Assembly: GCA_905339165.1 (NCBI GenBank)
Contig: CAJPFH010000035.1
Coordinates: 1 to 64,000, forward strand
DNA from: Flavobacteriales bacterium
Lineage (GTDB): Bacteria; Bacteroidota; Bacteroidia; Flavobacteriales_E; Vicingaceae
Length of the DNA: 64,000 nt
Direction of reading: 5' to 3'
A program made the translations under genes and the position numbers. Shown piece by piece: positions 56,036 through 64,000 of this stretch; the stretch's first letter is position 1; each line of letters begins with the position of its first letter. The notes under the pieces were generated by a model. The model was given only the letters and a program-made list of their open reading frames with translations, was not told where the DNA came from and made no database searches.

Positions 56036-56043
56036 TAGGTTTG
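56036..56043 (+). promoter_or_regulatory. -7 box TAGGTTTG for the His-rich membrane protein gene
   Basis: Full consensus match, with TTTG at 56015-56018 as a possible -33 element 17 bases upstream. It ends 21 bases before the ATG at 56065, and its last bases are an in-frame TTG that is not the start. Confidence 0.6.
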
Positions 56044-56064
56044 CTGTTTACCATTTTAGGTGTC

Positions 56065-57324
56065 ATGGATAGTTTTATAGATAAAAAGTTTATTCGTATT
56101 TCTTTATTAAACCTACTAATAGTTGCTTTATTAGGTGTGTTAATGCGATATAAAATTGGTTTCGAGTTTAATTATTTCGACCAAAAGAATTTACAACATG
56201 CACACTCTCACTTTGCTTTTACCGGATGGATTTCCCAAACCATTATGATACTTATGGTTTTGTTAATTAGTAAAGAATTAACAAAACACAGACTCAAACT
56301 CTTTAAATTACTTCTCTTTTCAAACTTAATGGCTGCATACGGAATGCTCATATCATTTGCCATTAGTGGATACAGTTTATCTTCGATTATTTTTTCCAGT
56401 ATTTCTATTCTAACTTCATTTTTATTTTCGTACTGTTATTTTAAAAATTTAAACCTGATAAAAAGTAAACAAATTCGAAGATGGTTTGGTGCTGCTTTAT
56501 TTTTTAATATTATTTCTTCTTTGGGCACTTTTGCTTTGGTATATATGATGATTACTAAAAAAATTCCACAACATAACTATTTAGCCTCTGTGTATTGGTA
56601 TCTGCATTTTCAGTATAATGGGTGGTATTTGTTTGCATGCATAGGTTTGTTTTTAGGATATGTTCAATCTGTAGTAAAACAATTCAAAGTATCTATGGTT
56701 GTATTTTGGCTTTTTGCAACAAGTTGTATTCCTGCTTACGGGCTTTCTGTTCTTTGGCTTAAAATATCTCCCGTACTGTATATTCTTATAATTTTAGCCG
56801 CTATTGCCCAATATCTTGGAGGCATAATTATGTTAATTCGCTTAAGAAAATATAAATTTTTAGAAAATATTCGCACCAATAAATTAAGTGTATTGCTATT
56901 TATCATCTTAGGAATAGCCCTAGCTATTAAATTAAGTTTGCAATTAGGATCAACGATTCCCGCTATTAGTAAACTGGCCTTTGGGTTTAGGCCAATTGTT
57001 ATTGCGTATCTGCATTTGGCTTTATTAGCCATTACATCTGTATTTCTTATAACATATATCTATGCTACTCAAAAAATTAAAATCAACTATTTAAGCATAA
57101 GTGGTATTATACTTTTTGTTATTGGTGTTTATTTAAATGAAATAATGCTAGCAGTTCAAGGAATTGCCTCTTTTAGCTACACCGTTATACCTGGCGTCAA
57201 TGGAATGCTGTTGGGCATTTCTCTTCTTATTTTGTTTGGAATATTTTTAATATATTTTTCTCAATTGAAAAAACTACTATTAAATAATTTTAAACATGAT
57301 GATAATCATTTATTGAAATCGTAG
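56065..57324 (+). CDS. Polytopic membrane protein with conserved histidines (heme-copper oxidase/NnrS-like pattern)
   Basis: 419 aa from the ATG at 56065, with about 12 hydrophobic helices. Histidine-bearing motifs recall heme or metal sites: NLQHAHSHFAFTGWISQ near residue 40, YWYLHFQYNGWYLF near 175, and RPIVIAYLHLALLAI near 315. This resembles subunit-I-like or NnrS-like membrane proteins that occur near denitrification genes in Bacteroidota, but I cannot assign a family with certainty. Its neighbours (fasciclin, nos cluster) support a link to nitrogen-oxide metabolism or redox stress. No signal peptide. Confidence 0.7.
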   Translation: MDSFIDKKFIRISLLNLLIVALLGVLMRYKIGFEFNYFDQKNLQHAHSHFAFTGWISQTIMILMVLLISKELTKHRLKLFKLLLFSNLMAAYGMLISFAISGYSLSSIIFSSISILTSFLFSYCYFKNLNLIKSKQIRRWFGAALFFNIISSLGTFALVYMMITKKIPQHNYLASVYWYLHFQYNGWYLFACIGLFLGYVQSVVKQFKVSMVVFWLFATSCIPAYGLSVLWLKISPVLYILIILAAIAQYLGGIIMLIRLRKYKFLENIRTNKLSVLLFIILGIALAIKLSLQLGSTIPAISKLAFGFRPIVIAYLHLALLAITSVFLITYIYATQKIKINYLSISGIILFVIGVYLNEIMLAVQGIASFSYTVIPGVNGMLLGISLLILFGIFLIYFSQLKKLLLNNFKHDDNHLLKS

Positions 57325-57984: not shown

Positions 57985-58752
57985 TTACAAGTCTTTTTTA
58001 TTGAAAATTTTAAGTGATAGGAGAAAAGGAAATAGAATCCAACATATTAATAACATAAAGGCAATAAAAAGCCCAAGATTTGAACCAAAAAAATCTTTAA
58101 AAATTGCTCCGGAGTATCCCATCATTGCAGACACATTTAAATGCAACAAGATAAGAATCCTTGCTAAATCAATAGGACTACTGGCTGTAATACCTACCAT
58201 CATTTTTTCTATTGGGTAATCGGAAAATTGAAATAAAAGAAACAAAACTAATCCATCAAATAATAAAGCAAAATATAACCATAATAGAATCGAAATACCA
58301 ATGCCCTTGGCTTTATCGCGACTAAGAATGGAGCTAAGGAATGCGATAGCAATAAATACAGTAGAAATTAAGCATCCTACCACAATCATCATAAAACCAA
58401 CTAAAGATTCTGCAAATAATATTAAAGGAATTCCTGCTGCTATTAAAAAAGCACTTAGTAAACTAATCGATAATCCAATGAATAAACTCAGCCATATTTT
58501 ATTGCGATGTATGGGTTGACTTAATAATAGTTCTATAAATTCAGAGCTATTATATATATAGATTGTAGCGAATAGAATAGAGACTAAAGGTACAATTAGT
58601 AAAATAATATTTAATATGGTAAGTACCCCTTTGGTAGAGCCGTCTTCTAAACTAAAGGCACTCCATGAAAATGCAGCCAATAGAATGGTATAGGCTAATA
58701 CAATTTTATTTTTTAAAATATCAAGAATTATGAATTTAATAATTCTGTTCAT
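57985..58752 (-). CDS. nosY: NosY-type ABC permease for nitrous oxide reductase maturation
   Basis: 255 aa with about six membrane segments (e.g. ILNIILLIVPLVSILFATIYIY, GFMMIVVGCLISTVFIAIAFL). It carries the type seen in NosY: an ABC-2-like permease with SEFIELLLSQPIHRNKIWLS near residue 70. It shares one base with nosF (TAATG), so the two are translationally coupled. With NosF and NosD it forms the transporter needed for assembling the copper-sulphur centre of NosZ. Confidence 0.92.
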   Translation of the reverse strand: MNRIIKFIILDILKNKIVLAYTILLAAFSWSAFSLEDGSTKGVLTILNIILLIVPLVSILFATIYIYNSSEFIELLLSQPIHRNKIWLSLFIGLSISLLSAFLIAAGIPLILFAESLVGFMMIVVGCLISTVFIAIAFLSSILSRDKAKGIGISILLWLYFALLFDGLVLFLLFQFSDYPIEKMMVGITASSPIDLARILILLHLNVSAMMGYSGAIFKDFFGSNLGLFIAFMLLICWILFPFLLSLKIFNKKDL

Positions 58753-59459
58753 TAATTTTGTTGTTTTAAAATTTTAGAAATAACTTTTGAGATTTTATCT
58801 TCGCCAGTTTCTCTTTTAAGTGTTTCAATACTCTGATAAAAATTTATTTTCCCTTCTTGCATAAAAATAAGGTGAGAAACCAACTCATCTAACTCACTTA
58901 ATAAATGTGAAGTGATGAGTATTAATTTTCCATTTTGTTTTTCTTTTAGAATTTTTTCTTTCAAAATTTCTGAAGATAGTGGATCTAAACCGGCCGTGGG
59001 TTCATCTAAAATAAGCACATCAGGATTAAATAAAAATGCAAGAGTGGCACTTACTTTTTGAGTAGTTCCACCGCTAAGTGTACGCATTTGTTTATAAAAC
59101 ATTTGATTCAACTGGAATTGATTAAGGAGGTCTTCATCAATATTGTTATTAGATTGACGTATATTTTTAATCATTTCTATTACTTGACCAATACTCATAT
59201 TTTCGGGGTATCTTCCAATTTGAGGCATATACCCTATATTTTTTCGGTATTCAAAATCATTTTTAATATTTTTTTCTTTAAATATAATATCGCCACCATC
59301 TGGCAACACCATACCTAATATTGATTTAATTAATGTTGTTTTACCACAGCCGTTAGGCCCTATTAATGCCACACATTGTCCTTCTTCAAATAAAAGATTG
59401 ATGTTATTCAAAACACTTAAACGACCAAATTTTTTAGAAACATTTATTAACTCAATCAT
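58752..59459 (-). CDS. nosF: NosF-type ABC ATPase
   Basis: 235 aa. Walker A GPNGCGKTTLIKS, signature LSGGTTQKVS, Walker B VLILDEPTAGLDP and switch His in ITSHLLSELDEL are intact. It energises NosY. It overlaps nosD by 4 bases and nosY by 1, so the D-F-Y triplet is tightly coupled. Confidence 0.94.
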   Translation of the reverse strand: MIELINVSKKFGRLSVLNNINLLFEEGQCVALIGPNGCGKTTLIKSILGMVLPDGGDIIFKEKNIKNDFEYRKNIGYMPQIGRYPENMSIGQVIEMIKNIRQSNNNIDEDLLNQFQLNQMFYKQMRTLSGGTTQKVSATLAFLFNPDVLILDEPTAGLDPLSSEILKEKILKEKQNGKLILITSHLLSELDELVSHLIFMQEGKINFYQSIETLKRETGEDKISKVISKILKQQN

Positions 59460-60688
59460 AACTTTATTGCTCTCATTAACGGTTTATTATCAATAAAATT
59501 TTCGGGTGTTAAACTTGGTAATATTTTTTCTGATTTATCTAATAGTGTTACAATAAAACTTCTATAAATTAGCATGGCCGGTGGACAATTTTCTACTATA
59601 ACAGAGAATAAACTAAGAGGATGATAAGGAACATCTCCAACATTATCTTTATTCAGATCATACCCTTCATACTTATCCCAATAATTTTCATTGAATGTAT
59701 TTAAAACCAGCGTTCCATTCGTGCTAACATCAAATGTATTTCCAATAAAATTATTTTTTTCAATATAATTATCCATACAACTAGCTTGTATTTTCATACC
59801 CCATCCATTCGCTTCAAAAATATTTTTTTCAATCAGTAGCCTATTTGAACCCTCTATATAAATTCCTGATGTATTATTATAAAATTTATTTGTAGCTATA
59901 TAACTATCAGAAATATCTTTTAATAAAAGACCATAAGAGGAATCGCCCCAGTTGTTTTCAAATGTATTATTCATCATGGTTACTTTTTTGGTAAACATAA
60001 CAGCAACACCGGCACCATTGTTTTTAAAAATATTAGTAATGTAGGAATCATTATGAGAAAACATAAAGTGCAAACCGTACCGAAGGTTATTACAAGAAAT
60101 ATTTCTCCAAATGATTGAATTCGTTACAAACTCAAAATAAATCCCGTCTCTATTACCTGAAATATTATTTCCTATAATTTGCAAACTATCGCTTTTCCAA
60201 CAATGCACCCCATTTCCTATTTCTTGTTCTGTTTTTATTAAAGCACTTATTTTATTATCTTTTACTATGCAATGTTTACTTTCCTGAATATATATTCCAA
60301 AAAAATTATCGAATAATTGATTGTTTTGAATGGTAACATAACTGGAGTTATAAATTTTTATACCACCAGGGTCATCTAATACAGCATAACTTGAATGTTG
60401 TATAATAAAGCCCTTAATGGTAACATAATTTGCTTTAACGGTAAGTACTTCAAATTTTTTTTCTCCGTCTAAAACCGGAAAATCTTTTCCTAATAAGAAA
60501 ACGGATTTATCAATAACAATATTTCCTTCCTTATAAAAACCTTTTTCAACAATAATAGTATCTCCATTTACTGCATCATTTAAGGCTAATTTAATTTTTT
60601 TATAAAAATAATTATTGCCAATAAGAAGAGTTTTTGCATCTATTATGAAAGAGGAAAAGAGAAATATAGAAAATAATAATACCCTCAT
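59456..60688 (-). CDS. nosD: NosD, periplasmic copper-centre maturation protein
   Basis: 410 aa. Signal peptide (MRVLLFSIFLFSSFIIDA, cut before KTLLIG). The body is a right-handed beta-helix of ~22-residue repeats, as in the NosD/CASH family (INDAVNGDTIIVEKG..., NNQLFDNFFGIYIQES, GNGVHCWKSDSLQIIGNNIS). It helps insert the CuZ cluster into NosZ with NosF and NosY. The last ~60 residues are less regular (EKILPSLTPENF). Confidence 0.93.
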   Translation of the reverse strand: MRVLLFSIFLFSSFIIDAKTLLIGNNYFYKKIKLALNDAVNGDTIIVEKGFYKEGNIVIDKSVFLLGKDFPVLDGEKKFEVLTVKANYVTIKGFIIQHSSYAVLDDPGGIKIYNSSYVTIQNNQLFDNFFGIYIQESKHCIVKDNKISALIKTEQEIGNGVHCWKSDSLQIIGNNISGNRDGIYFEFVTNSIIWRNISCNNLRYGLHFMFSHNDSYITNIFKNNGAGVAVMFTKKVTMMNNTFENNWGDSSYGLLLKDISDSYIATNKFYNNTSGIYIEGSNRLLIEKNIFEANGWGMKIQASCMDNYIEKNNFIGNTFDVSTNGTLVLNTFNENYWDKYEGYDLNKDNVGDVPYHPLSLFSVIVENCPPAMLIYRSFIVTLLDKSEKILPSLTPENFIDNKPLMRAIKL

Positions 60689-60697
60689 TAAAAGAAA

Positions 60698-61726
60698 TTA
60701 TTGATTGATTTCTTTCCACGTTTTAAGAGATGTTTTTCTCTCTTTAGCAAATTTTTGGGCTTTTGTATTTTCAGAAAATGCGGCAATGTTTCCTCCCATA
60801 GGACTTCTTATAGACTCAGAAAGAACAAAGAATGCATTTTCTGCAGGGATTAACAGATTGTTAGATGTGAATTCATTTACAAAATGTATTTTACATTCTA
60901 CATTATTGTTATCGCTTTTATAATTAATCATACATCTTAAATCATCAAACTTATATACACGCCCTTTTTTGGTTATAAGTTCTGAAGCAAATCTTCCATC
61001 TGTTATGGTCATTTTACAATATTCGCAATTATCCTTGTTTAATTTTATTGGTTCAGAATCTAAATTTGAACATGCAATGAATGATATTAAGAAAAAAAGA
61101 GAAAGAGTAATTGCTGTTGGTTTCGACATTCTGAAACGATTCAATACCCCCGTTTCAAACAAAACGACAAACAGCAATAACAATCCGCAAATAATAAAGA
61201 GCCATCCACCTAAATCGGGAACAGAATAGGCTCCGAAGTTTAGAAGTTGTTTAAAGCCAACTAATGGTGGTTGGTAAGCCATTCCAGGAACTATAATTGC
61301 AGCATTGGGATCGAGGTTATGCCCGTAATTATATTCCCAACGCCAAAAATCAACCATTGCTATAATGCCAAACAACACAAATGCTGCAAAGGTAAAGTAT
61401 AAAACTTTTTTTCTGGCAATTAATATATTTATTAGAAACAAGAGTGCATATCCGGCAATGATGTATGGTAATAGAGTAAACTCAATGAAGTTTTCAGTAT
61501 GAAGTGTTTGCATCCCTATATAGTGATTTAGACCATTTATAATATCCACATCTCCTCCTATTTCATTTGCATAAATAAGTAAACCTAGTCCTTCAGGGTA
61601 TTGTGGTGCATCTAATTCTATTCTCCATATTGGAACAAAAATGGATACTACTAAAATAATACTTGCTATAATAAGTAATACTTTAGATAACAAAGATATT
61701 CTATTCGTTTTCATAAGCATATTCAT
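60698..61726 (-). CDS. nosL: NosL-type copper chaperone fused to an N-terminal membrane module
   Basis: 342 aa. Residues ~1-195 form four membrane segments (KVLLIIASIILVVSIFVPIW, LLPYIIAGYALLFLINILI, TFAAFVLFGIIAMVDFW, LFIICGLLLLFVVLF). The rest is a NosL domain: NCEYCKMTITDGRFASELIT with the Cys-x2-Cys-x-Met copper site, then RVYKFDDLRCM. The NosL part begins at Met200 with a segment that looks like a full lipoprotein signal ending in Cys219 (FLISFIAC), so this may be a gene fusion or two overlapping products. NosL hands copper to NosZ. A hairpin separates it from nosZ. Confidence 0.88.
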   Translation of the reverse strand: MNMLMKTNRISLLSKVLLIIASIILVVSIFVPIWRIELDAPQYPEGLGLLIYANEIGGDVDIINGLNHYIGMQTLHTENFIEFTLLPYIIAGYALLFLINILIARKKVLYFTFAAFVLFGIIAMVDFWRWEYNYGHNLDPNAAIIVPGMAYQPPLVGFKQLLNFGAYSVPDLGGWLFIICGLLLLFVVLFETGVLNRFRMSKPTAITLSLFFLISFIACSNLDSEPIKLNKDNCEYCKMTITDGRFASELITKKGRVYKFDDLRCMINYKSDNNNVECKIHFVNEFTSNNLLIPAENAFFVLSESIRSPMGGNIAAFSENTKAQKFAKERKTSLKTWKEINQ

Positions 61727-61785: not shown

Positions 61786-63765
61786 CTATTTTAATGACCC
61801 CGGTGTATTATTTCCTAAACTAAAAGAAATAGGCACATTACTATTTGCTGAAGAAACTCTTGCATATCCCTGCATTTCCTGATGTAATGCACTACAAAAA
61901 TCGGTGCAATAGAATGGGGTAATACCAACTCTATCGGCTGTCCATTTTAATGTTGCGGTTTCACCCGGCATAATAAGTAACTCTGCATTTTGAGCCCCTT
62001 TTACAGAAAATCCATGTGGTACATCCCAATCTTGTTCAAGGTTAGTAACATGAAAATAGACTTCATCACCCTTTTTTATTCCTTCAATATTATCTGGAGC
62101 AAAATGCGAACGAACACAAGTCATATAAACGTGTACTTTATTCCCTTCTCGAACTACTTTAGATTCTTGTTCGCCTTTGGCTGCATAAGGGTGTTTATTG
62201 TCTTCTATTTTATAGAACTTTAATTGACCGTTATTTCTAATCAAATCTGCCGGTGCGGCTTGTGCATAATGCGGTTCTCCAATAGTTGGAAAATCTAATA
62301 TCAGTTGCATTTTACCGCCACTGATATCGTACAACTGTGCTGATTGTGTTAATTCTGGTCCCGTAGGTAAATATCTATCTTTAGTTATTTTATTATATGC
62401 TACTAAATATTTTCCAAAAGGCTTTTTAGTATCTCCCCCAGGAATCATTAAGTGTCCAACTGAGTAATAGGTAGGAACCCGATCTAAAACTTCTAGTGTT
62501 TTTAAACTCCATTTTACAATTTCTGATGATACGAAGAAACTAGTATATGCATTTCCTTCTCCATCAAACTCAGTATGTAAAGGTCCTAATCCTGGCTTTT
62601 TAACTTCTCCGTGTAGGGCCGATTCGTACTTAATAACATGTACGCCTTCATAGTCTGTTTCAAATTCATTGTTTTCTATAGCCTTAATCATCTTTGAAAA
62701 ACTAAAAACAGGAATAAGTGCTGCTAATTTACCACTTCCGCAAATGTATTCACCTGAAGGGTCTACATCTGTTCCGTGAGGAGACTTTGGACAAGGTAAA
62801 AAATAGCAGATATCTTTGAACTCAGTTGCATCTAAAACTAAAACCTCATTTTTTAATACAGAATTACCTGTGTGAGTACTTTCATTCCATGTGTTATGAG
62901 CGTAACTAACGGTTTCTTTTTTTCCTTTTCCGGCTTTAATATACTCCTCGGCTTTTTTCCAATTTACTGCCATTATAAAGTCTTTATCTTTTTGCGAAGC
63001 ATTTACTTCTAATAAGGTATGGGCTTGCTCTACATTATAACAAGAAAAGAAAAACCAACCATGCGAAGGACCTTTACCTCCGTGTGCCTTATCAAAATCA
63101 ATTCCTGGCAACCTCAATTGAAAGGCTATATCCATTTCACCTTCTTTTCCAACAGAAATAAAACTCATGTGCGATTTGAATGTTTCTTTATATGTATTAA
63201 TTGGAACATCACCATTCTCATAATCGCCAGGAACAGCAAAACGAGTACCTGCTACAACATACTCGCTATTCTCTGTAATAAAAGGAGAAGAGTGATTTCC
63301 AGCACTGTTTGGCAATTCGATTATTTCTGCAGTTTTAAATGTTTTTAAATCAATGCGAGCAACTCTAGGCGTATTATTGGCATTTATAAACACCCACCTT
63401 CCATCAACCTCGCCATTGGTTTGTGACAATTCAGGATGATGAGCATCATCCCAAGGAATAAAACCATGCGAGGTATTTAGCATAGGCTTGGACTCCTCAC
63501 TAAAACCCCAACCTTTTTCAGGATCAACAGAGAAAACGGGAATTGAACGAAATAATCGTCCGCTAGGTAAACCATAAACACTTAACTGACCATTAAATCC
63601 GCCCGATACGAAATTATAAAACTCATCATACTTTCCGGGGGCAACATACGCCTTCGAGGAGGCATCTCCTGATACCGCATTGCTTGTGTTTTTTGGCTTA
63701 CAGGCAACAAATGCTAACAAGCCAAAGAACACTGAAATTAATATTGTTTTAGATACAATTTTCAT
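61786..63765 (-). CDS. nosZ: Nitrous oxide reductase (clade II type), lipoprotein
   Basis: 659 aa. Reduces N2O to N2. The N-terminus is a Sec lipoprotein signal with lipobox LAFVAC (Cys22), not a Tat signal, which together with the NosL/D/F/Y set fits clade II. The beta-propeller contributes CuZ His residues, e.g. the DDAHHPEL pair near 110 and later SAGNHSSPF, KSPHGTDVD and HGEVKK-region His. The CuA cupredoxin domain holds His584 (DWDVPHGFS), Cys620, Cys624, His628 and Met631 (CTDFCSALHQEM). Preceded in the same operon by a cytochrome c, the likely electron donor. Confidence 0.96.
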   Translation of the reverse strand: MKIVSKTILISVFFGLLAFVACKPKNTSNAVSGDASSKAYVAPGKYDEFYNFVSGGFNGQLSVYGLPSGRLFRSIPVFSVDPEKGWGFSEESKPMLNTSHGFIPWDDAHHPELSQTNGEVDGRWVFINANNTPRVARIDLKTFKTAEIIELPNSAGNHSSPFITENSEYVVAGTRFAVPGDYENGDVPINTYKETFKSHMSFISVGKEGEMDIAFQLRLPGIDFDKAHGGKGPSHGWFFFSCYNVEQAHTLLEVNASQKDKDFIMAVNWKKAEEYIKAGKGKKETVSYAHNTWNESTHTGNSVLKNEVLVLDATEFKDICYFLPCPKSPHGTDVDPSGEYICGSGKLAALIPVFSFSKMIKAIENNEFETDYEGVHVIKYESALHGEVKKPGLGPLHTEFDGEGNAYTSFFVSSEIVKWSLKTLEVLDRVPTYYSVGHLMIPGGDTKKPFGKYLVAYNKITKDRYLPTGPELTQSAQLYDISGGKMQLILDFPTIGEPHYAQAAPADLIRNNGQLKFYKIEDNKHPYAAKGEQESKVVREGNKVHVYMTCVRSHFAPDNIEGIKKGDEVYFHVTNLEQDWDVPHGFSVKGAQNAELLIMPGETATLKWTADRVGITPFYCTDFCSALHQEMQGYARVSSANSNVPISFSLGNNTPGSLK

Positions 63766-63784: not shown

Positions 63785-64000
63785 TTATTTTGCTTCATCG
63801 TTTTTTCTCATAAACTCTACTATGCTTCTTGCCTCTTCATCACTTAAATTTTGATTAGGCATTCTGACTAAACATAGTTCCAACTGGGCTTGTATTTCTG
63901 GGTCCTTTTCAATCATCGGATCTGGATTGGTTATAAAATTCATAATCCAATACAATTCTCTTTTTTTGGTTACCCCTTTCCAACCAGGACCTACTAATTT
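63785..64000 (-). CDS. Monohaem c-type cytochrome, C-terminal part (5' end beyond the window)
   Basis: Reading the minus strand, 71 residues are visible up to a TAA at 63785: LVGPGWKGVTKKRELYWIMN ... LVRMPNQNLSDEEARSIVEFM. The Gly-Pro-x-Trp-x-Gly region and the Met of LVRMPNQ (axial ligand candidate) with the final helix SDEEARSIVEFMR are typical of small cytochromes c; the CxxCH motif should lie just beyond the edge. It is 19 bases upstream of nosZ and co-directional, so it is the probable electron donor to NosZ or part of the nos operon. Confidence 0.85.
   Translation of the reverse strand, partial: KLVGPGWKGVTKKRELYWIMNFITNPDPMIEKDPEIQAQLELCLVRMPNQNLSDEEARSIVEFMRKNDEAK

Follow-up and report, generated by a model that had tools for sequence, protein, structure and literature searches.

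The open frame described here lies on the minus strand at 60698..61726 of the window, which is the whole stretch of 64,000 nucleotides that was analysed. The frame begins with ATG, contains no internal stop and encodes 342 residues. It was found in a clade II nos cluster with the order of a frame at 63785-64000, NosZ, the 342-residue frame, NosD, an ABC ATPase and an ABC permease. In particular, NosZ (61786..63765, minus strand) is a clade II, Sec-dependent nitrous-oxide reductase that matched TIGR04246 with 914.7 bits (cut-off 625), and NosD (59456..60688, minus strand) matched TIGR04247 with 420.6 bits (cut-off 300). The NosF-type ATPase (58752..59459, minus strand) and the NosY-type permease (57985..58752, minus strand) were assigned from PF00005 and PF12679, respectively, together with their places in the cluster. 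The frame at 63785-64000 is cut by the window end and gave a cytochrome c match only at an E-value of 0.22. A 427-residue protein with many hydrophobic segments, encoded at 56041-57324 on the plus strand, had no Pfam or NCBIfam match. Genes for LspA (PF01252) and Lgt (PF01790) were present in the source genome. A species of the same genus carried the identical fusion arrangement at 96% identity with the lipobox Cys kept, which excludes a sequencing slip.

Two proteins are fused in the 342-residue frame: NosB, which belongs to clade II clusters and spans the membrane with four helices, and the copper chaperone NosL. The NosB module spans residues 1-196 (61139..61726; this and the following features are on the minus strand) and contains four transmembrane helices and periplasmic strands in the AlphaFold2 models. 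No Pfam family exceeded its cut-off on residues 1-200. Both motifs given for NosB in the available part of PMC9697520, LNHYIGM and YGHN, were found in the translation, and the gene sits between nosZ and nosD; the same source cites NosB as needed for N2O respiration in Wolinella. The AlphaFold2 model (mean pLDDT 84.9, falling to 61-79 in the blocks that surround the signal) showed helices at residues 12-28, 82-103, 106-136 and 172-192, followed by a short helix at 202-215, and none of these reached Cys219. The predicted NosB fold of four helices and a periplasmic sheet resembled mostly claudin/TARP-type proteins, including the designed claudin fold 8oyv_A (Z-score of 9.4, rmsd of 4.8, 146 aligned residues) and TARP gamma 7, 9s41_I (Z-score of 9.3, rmsd of 4.7, 148 aligned residues), and the best Foldseek E-value was 0.0045. 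These Z-scores are middling for a helical protein, and the likeness between models and structures may be taken as a lead only.

The NosL domain spans residues 219-342 (60701..61072). PF05573 matched residues 230-341 with an E-value of 1.7e-14 and 54.7 bits against a cut-off of 24, and the same family was matched by 55 of the 55 members of set A1 at an E-value of 0.01 or better. The clade II copper motif CxxCxM is present as CEYCKM at residues 234-239. Structure comparison also supported the NosL fold, with 7og7 showing a Z-score of 16.4 and an rmsd of 2.3 over 122 aligned residues, and 7osg_H a Z-score of 15.3. In a profile of the joined proteins, Cys219 aligned with Cys24 of NosL in the solved NosDFYL complex (chain 7osf_H).

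The junction of the two domains consists of a cytoplasmic loop or n-region at residues 193-202 (61121..61150) with Met200 and basic residues, a hydrophobic core at residues 203-218 (61073..61120) and the lipobox F216-I217-A218-C219 (61070..61081). A previous sequence-only reading had described a four-helix module followed in the same frame by a complete lipoprotein signal, and Met200, Lys202, FLISFIAC and Cys219 were all at the positions it gave. The segment has the traits of a lipoprotein precursor, namely a lipobox with Cys, a small -1 residue, a hydrophobic -3 residue and a basic n-region, but it lies at about residues 198-219, after four helices, and not at the N-terminus of the chain. As in a polyprotein, a single frame encodes two proteins with an inner signal, and the two are separate genes elsewhere.

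The NosB-NosL fusion is neither new nor rare. The available part of PMC9697520 cites others for a NosB-NosL fusion in Dyadobacter fermentans, and some flavobacteria are proposed there to have a NosB-L fusion as well. Matches were found in 22 of 60 relatives and in 133 of 395 genomes of the phylum; 130 of these 133 genomes were read, the other three being G063 and G220, for which no place was listed, and one further genome. The 130 loci of this phylum sample comprised 90 separate pairs, 30 joined frames and 10 NosB genes without a nearby NosL frame, and joined frames thus occupied 30 of the 120 loci having both domains. At L218, L220, L221, L228, L231 and L233-L237, NosB stood without a NosL frame within the fetched sequence, which covered at most about 2.5 kb on either side. 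For all sources combined, dropping eight second-match loci (L023-L030) and ten NosB-only loci and merging six identical copies reduced 238 loci to 214 distinct loci with both domains. These were divided into 108 joined and 106 separate loci, and the kin of the window protein are over-represented, as 74 of the 108 joined rows were fetched by similarity to it. An assembly or annotation artefact was ruled out by the 108 distinct joined proteins, which came from many genomes, some of them single-contig, and a NosB module that is always joined was ruled out by the 106 separate pairs. A true fusion, one of the options of the sequence-only reading, was borne out, and the comparison it had proposed with other Bacteroidota found the membrane module as a separate gene in about half of the distinct loci (106/214). 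Its view that such a fusion would be unusual did not hold, given the frequency in the phylum sample and the fusion already in print.

The separate genes nearly touch, so joining needs little: the median distance from the NosB stop to the NosL ATG was 8 bases, and 31 of 100 pairs overlapped (the 100 of the 106 with a Met in range). Trees of all 214 rows showed 18-20 switches between the joined and separate states, at least 11 of which were forced by supported branches, and a tree of 76 rows selected to cover the mixed regions showed 18 switches, at least 13 of them forced. A single fusion event without reversals was ruled out by the forced switches on both trees; the trees were unrooted, and gain and loss of the fusion are not separable on them. 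The separate pairs L122/L131, L088 and L123, which fall among joined ones, may be re-splits.

The lipobox Cys was present in all 108 distinct joined proteins and all 106 separate NosL proteins, and its retention in 108 of 108 joined proteins goes beyond chance; the search patterns used to fetch loci similar to the window protein did not include the lipobox. In the phylum sample alone, the Cys was found in 30 of 30 joined proteins (29 rows and one identical copy). With at least 11-13 forced switches, the Cys has survived in lineages that were joined separately or later re-split. The -1 residue was Ser, Gly or Ala in 106 of 108 joined and 103 of 106 separate proteins (Fisher p 0.68), the joined exceptions being L064 (Cys) and L128 (Asn), and the -3 residue was hydrophobic in 99 of 108 joined proteins. 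The same-genus species has Ser at -1 where the window protein has Ala, with the Cys unchanged. On the joined-only tree, which had a length of 42.9 substitutions per site, the Cys underwent 0 changes, compared with 22 at the -1 site and 45-71 at each of the sites from -2 to -16. A plain helix would let the Cys and the -1 residue decay like their neighbours; no such decay was found. Invariance equal to that of the Cys was observed in 30 of 281 well-filled columns of both domains, and the Cys and Met of the NosL copper motif were also invariant. NosL being a copper protein, the lipobox Cys could conceivably be held because it binds copper or forms a disulfide in NosL, and not as a lipid site. We regard this as very improbable, because, in the available part of PMC6530538, lipid attachment is predicted at the lipobox Cys and copper is assigned to the CxM motif (CxxCxM in clade II), and because a small -1 residue with a hydrophobic -3 residue is the pattern of a lipobox.

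Met200 (ATG, 61127..61129) is a candidate internal start, and its use would yield a second, separate lipidated NosL alongside the full-length fusion. Its position at -19 from the Cys falls in the nearest-Met range of separate NosL proteins (13-25 in 97 of 106), and it is shared by the window protein and the same-genus species. However, no ATG occurred at -32 to -14 in 68 of 108 joined proteins, with 61.3 expected from the NosB Met rate, and 44 of 108 had no ATG, GTG or TTG in this region. Met was not enriched there (a rate of 0.023, compared with 0.030 in NosB), and the close relatives L032, L033, L035 and L036, at about 60% identity, also lacked an ATG. No constraint on a start codon was thus evident. 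Wider regions left fewer joined proteins without any start codon (30/108 at -34 to -12 and 13/108 at -40 to -10), and an internal start may hold in some lineages; as the explanation of the joined frame, it is very unlikely. Slight ATG peaks were observed in the joined proteins at -22 (8 rows) and -19 (6 rows), which may be remnants of former start codons, with Met200 among those at -19.

Compared with the four real helices, the internal segment is short and of low hydrophobicity. The median of the best 19-residue hydropathy was 1.63 for the internal signal, 2.22-2.49 for TM1-TM4 and 1.82 for the signals of separate NosL, and the loop before the internal signal was basic, with a median net charge of +3 in the joined proteins. 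These values bear on an uncut fusion, in which the old signal would act as a fifth membrane helix tethering NosL to NosB and the Cys may be lipidated as a second anchor. The topology of four helices and then an in-to-out segment fits such a protein, as does the AlphaFold2 helix at 202-215, although this helix is only 14 residues long and its hydropathy is far under that of TM1-TM4. Additionally, the uncharged run before the Cys had a median of 16 residues in joined and 13 in separate proteins, compared with 18-21.5 in the four helices; the slightly longer run in the joined proteins could hint at an anchor and counts against cutting. The small -1 residue in nearly all joined proteins is a requirement of a lipobox and not of a helix, and we consider the uncut fusion unlikely.

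As judged from sequence, the joined frame probably encodes a polyprotein, in which Lgt would lipidate the internal signal and LspA would cut there, giving NosB and lipidated NosL. The Cys and the -1 residue are constrained and the start codon is not, which would be most simply explained if the joined chain is itself the substrate of Lgt and LspA. One chain would be translated from the joined frame, and NosB would insert as four helices, both of its ends lying on the cytoplasmic side. The four helices would leave the basic loop inside, so that the signal could enter in the right direction; the loop and the short signal would next be threaded in as a type II signal, which would place Cys219 on the periplasmic side. 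Diacylglycerol would be added to Cys219 by Lgt, and LspA would cut before this residue. The predicted products are NosB, whose short C-terminal membrane tail would be the former signal, and a mature, lipidated NosL located in the periplasm beside NosDFY and NosZ. The fusion would fix equal amounts and a shared insertion, while the end products would be the same as those from separate genes. Against the polyprotein, the lipobox might be lipidated without cutting, and sequence by itself does not separate cutting by LspA from a whole chain bearing lipid; the Cys is also slow-changing generally, and a copper or disulfide role would hold it too. The two options of the sequence-only reading, an extra helix and an internal start, omitted LspA cutting of the joined chain, which is the best-supported one. 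The extra helix fails to explain the strong lipobox constraint in joined proteins, and the internal start, although Met200 is kept in the sister species, found no support as a general mechanism, an ATG being absent there from most joined homologues.

The cytochrome b/c1 polyprotein encoded by fbcH in Bradyrhizobium japonicum joins a polytopic protein and a periplasmic protein, and its inner signal is kept and cut by signal peptidase I. The present frame has the same joined layout with an inner signal, which is here a type II lipoprotein signal with putative cutting. In OpuA-type transporters, the substrate-binding domain is fused to the permease and the former signal is taken as an anchor; a former lipoprotein is joined to a membrane protein in both systems, with the anchor role belonging to the OpuA signal. 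The separate NosL proteins of Paracoccus, Pseudomonas and Achromobacter have the lipobox, copper motif and fold found here, but their signal is at the N-terminus of their own gene, whereas here it is mid-chain. The NosB-L of Dyadobacter fermentans and Flavobacterium in PMC9697520 has the same two domains, order, place between nosZ and nosD, and LNHYIGM and YGHN motifs; the word "lipoprotein" occurs 0 times in that paper, and a retained lipobox is not discussed in its available part. That the lipobox is retained throughout the NosB-NosL fusions examined seems to be unreported: among open-licence papers, our search found neither a retained lipobox or polyprotein reading of NosB-NosL nor anything on point for internal lipoboxes and polyproteins, and no multi-span protein with an internal lipobox was described in the available parts of PMC10924467 and PMC9360617.

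On balance, it is likely that Bacteroidota repeatedly made a polyprotein gene from nosB and nosL, with Lgt and LspA acting on a mid-chain signal to release two proteins. If true, lipoprotein predictors that consider only the N-terminus miss a class of lipoproteins made from inside larger proteins. NosZ is the biological sink of the greenhouse gas N2O, whose destruction needs both NosB and NosL, and NosL supplies the copper of NosZ, and the route of NosL to the membrane in joined proteins decides NosZ assembly in many N2O-reducing Bacteroidota. The fusion would also offer a natural setting in which to test Lgt and LspA action on a signal located midway through a membrane protein, an activity for which we found no description among open-licence papers.

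The joined open frame of L139 had 511 residues, with about 150 extra residues ahead of NosB, and its true start may be further in. At L157, L159, L178, L184, L197, L200, L202, L204 and L205, the NosL-like frame beside NosB had C-x-x-T/S/N and not CxxCxM, and a second NosL-like frame was found nearby at the same nine loci.
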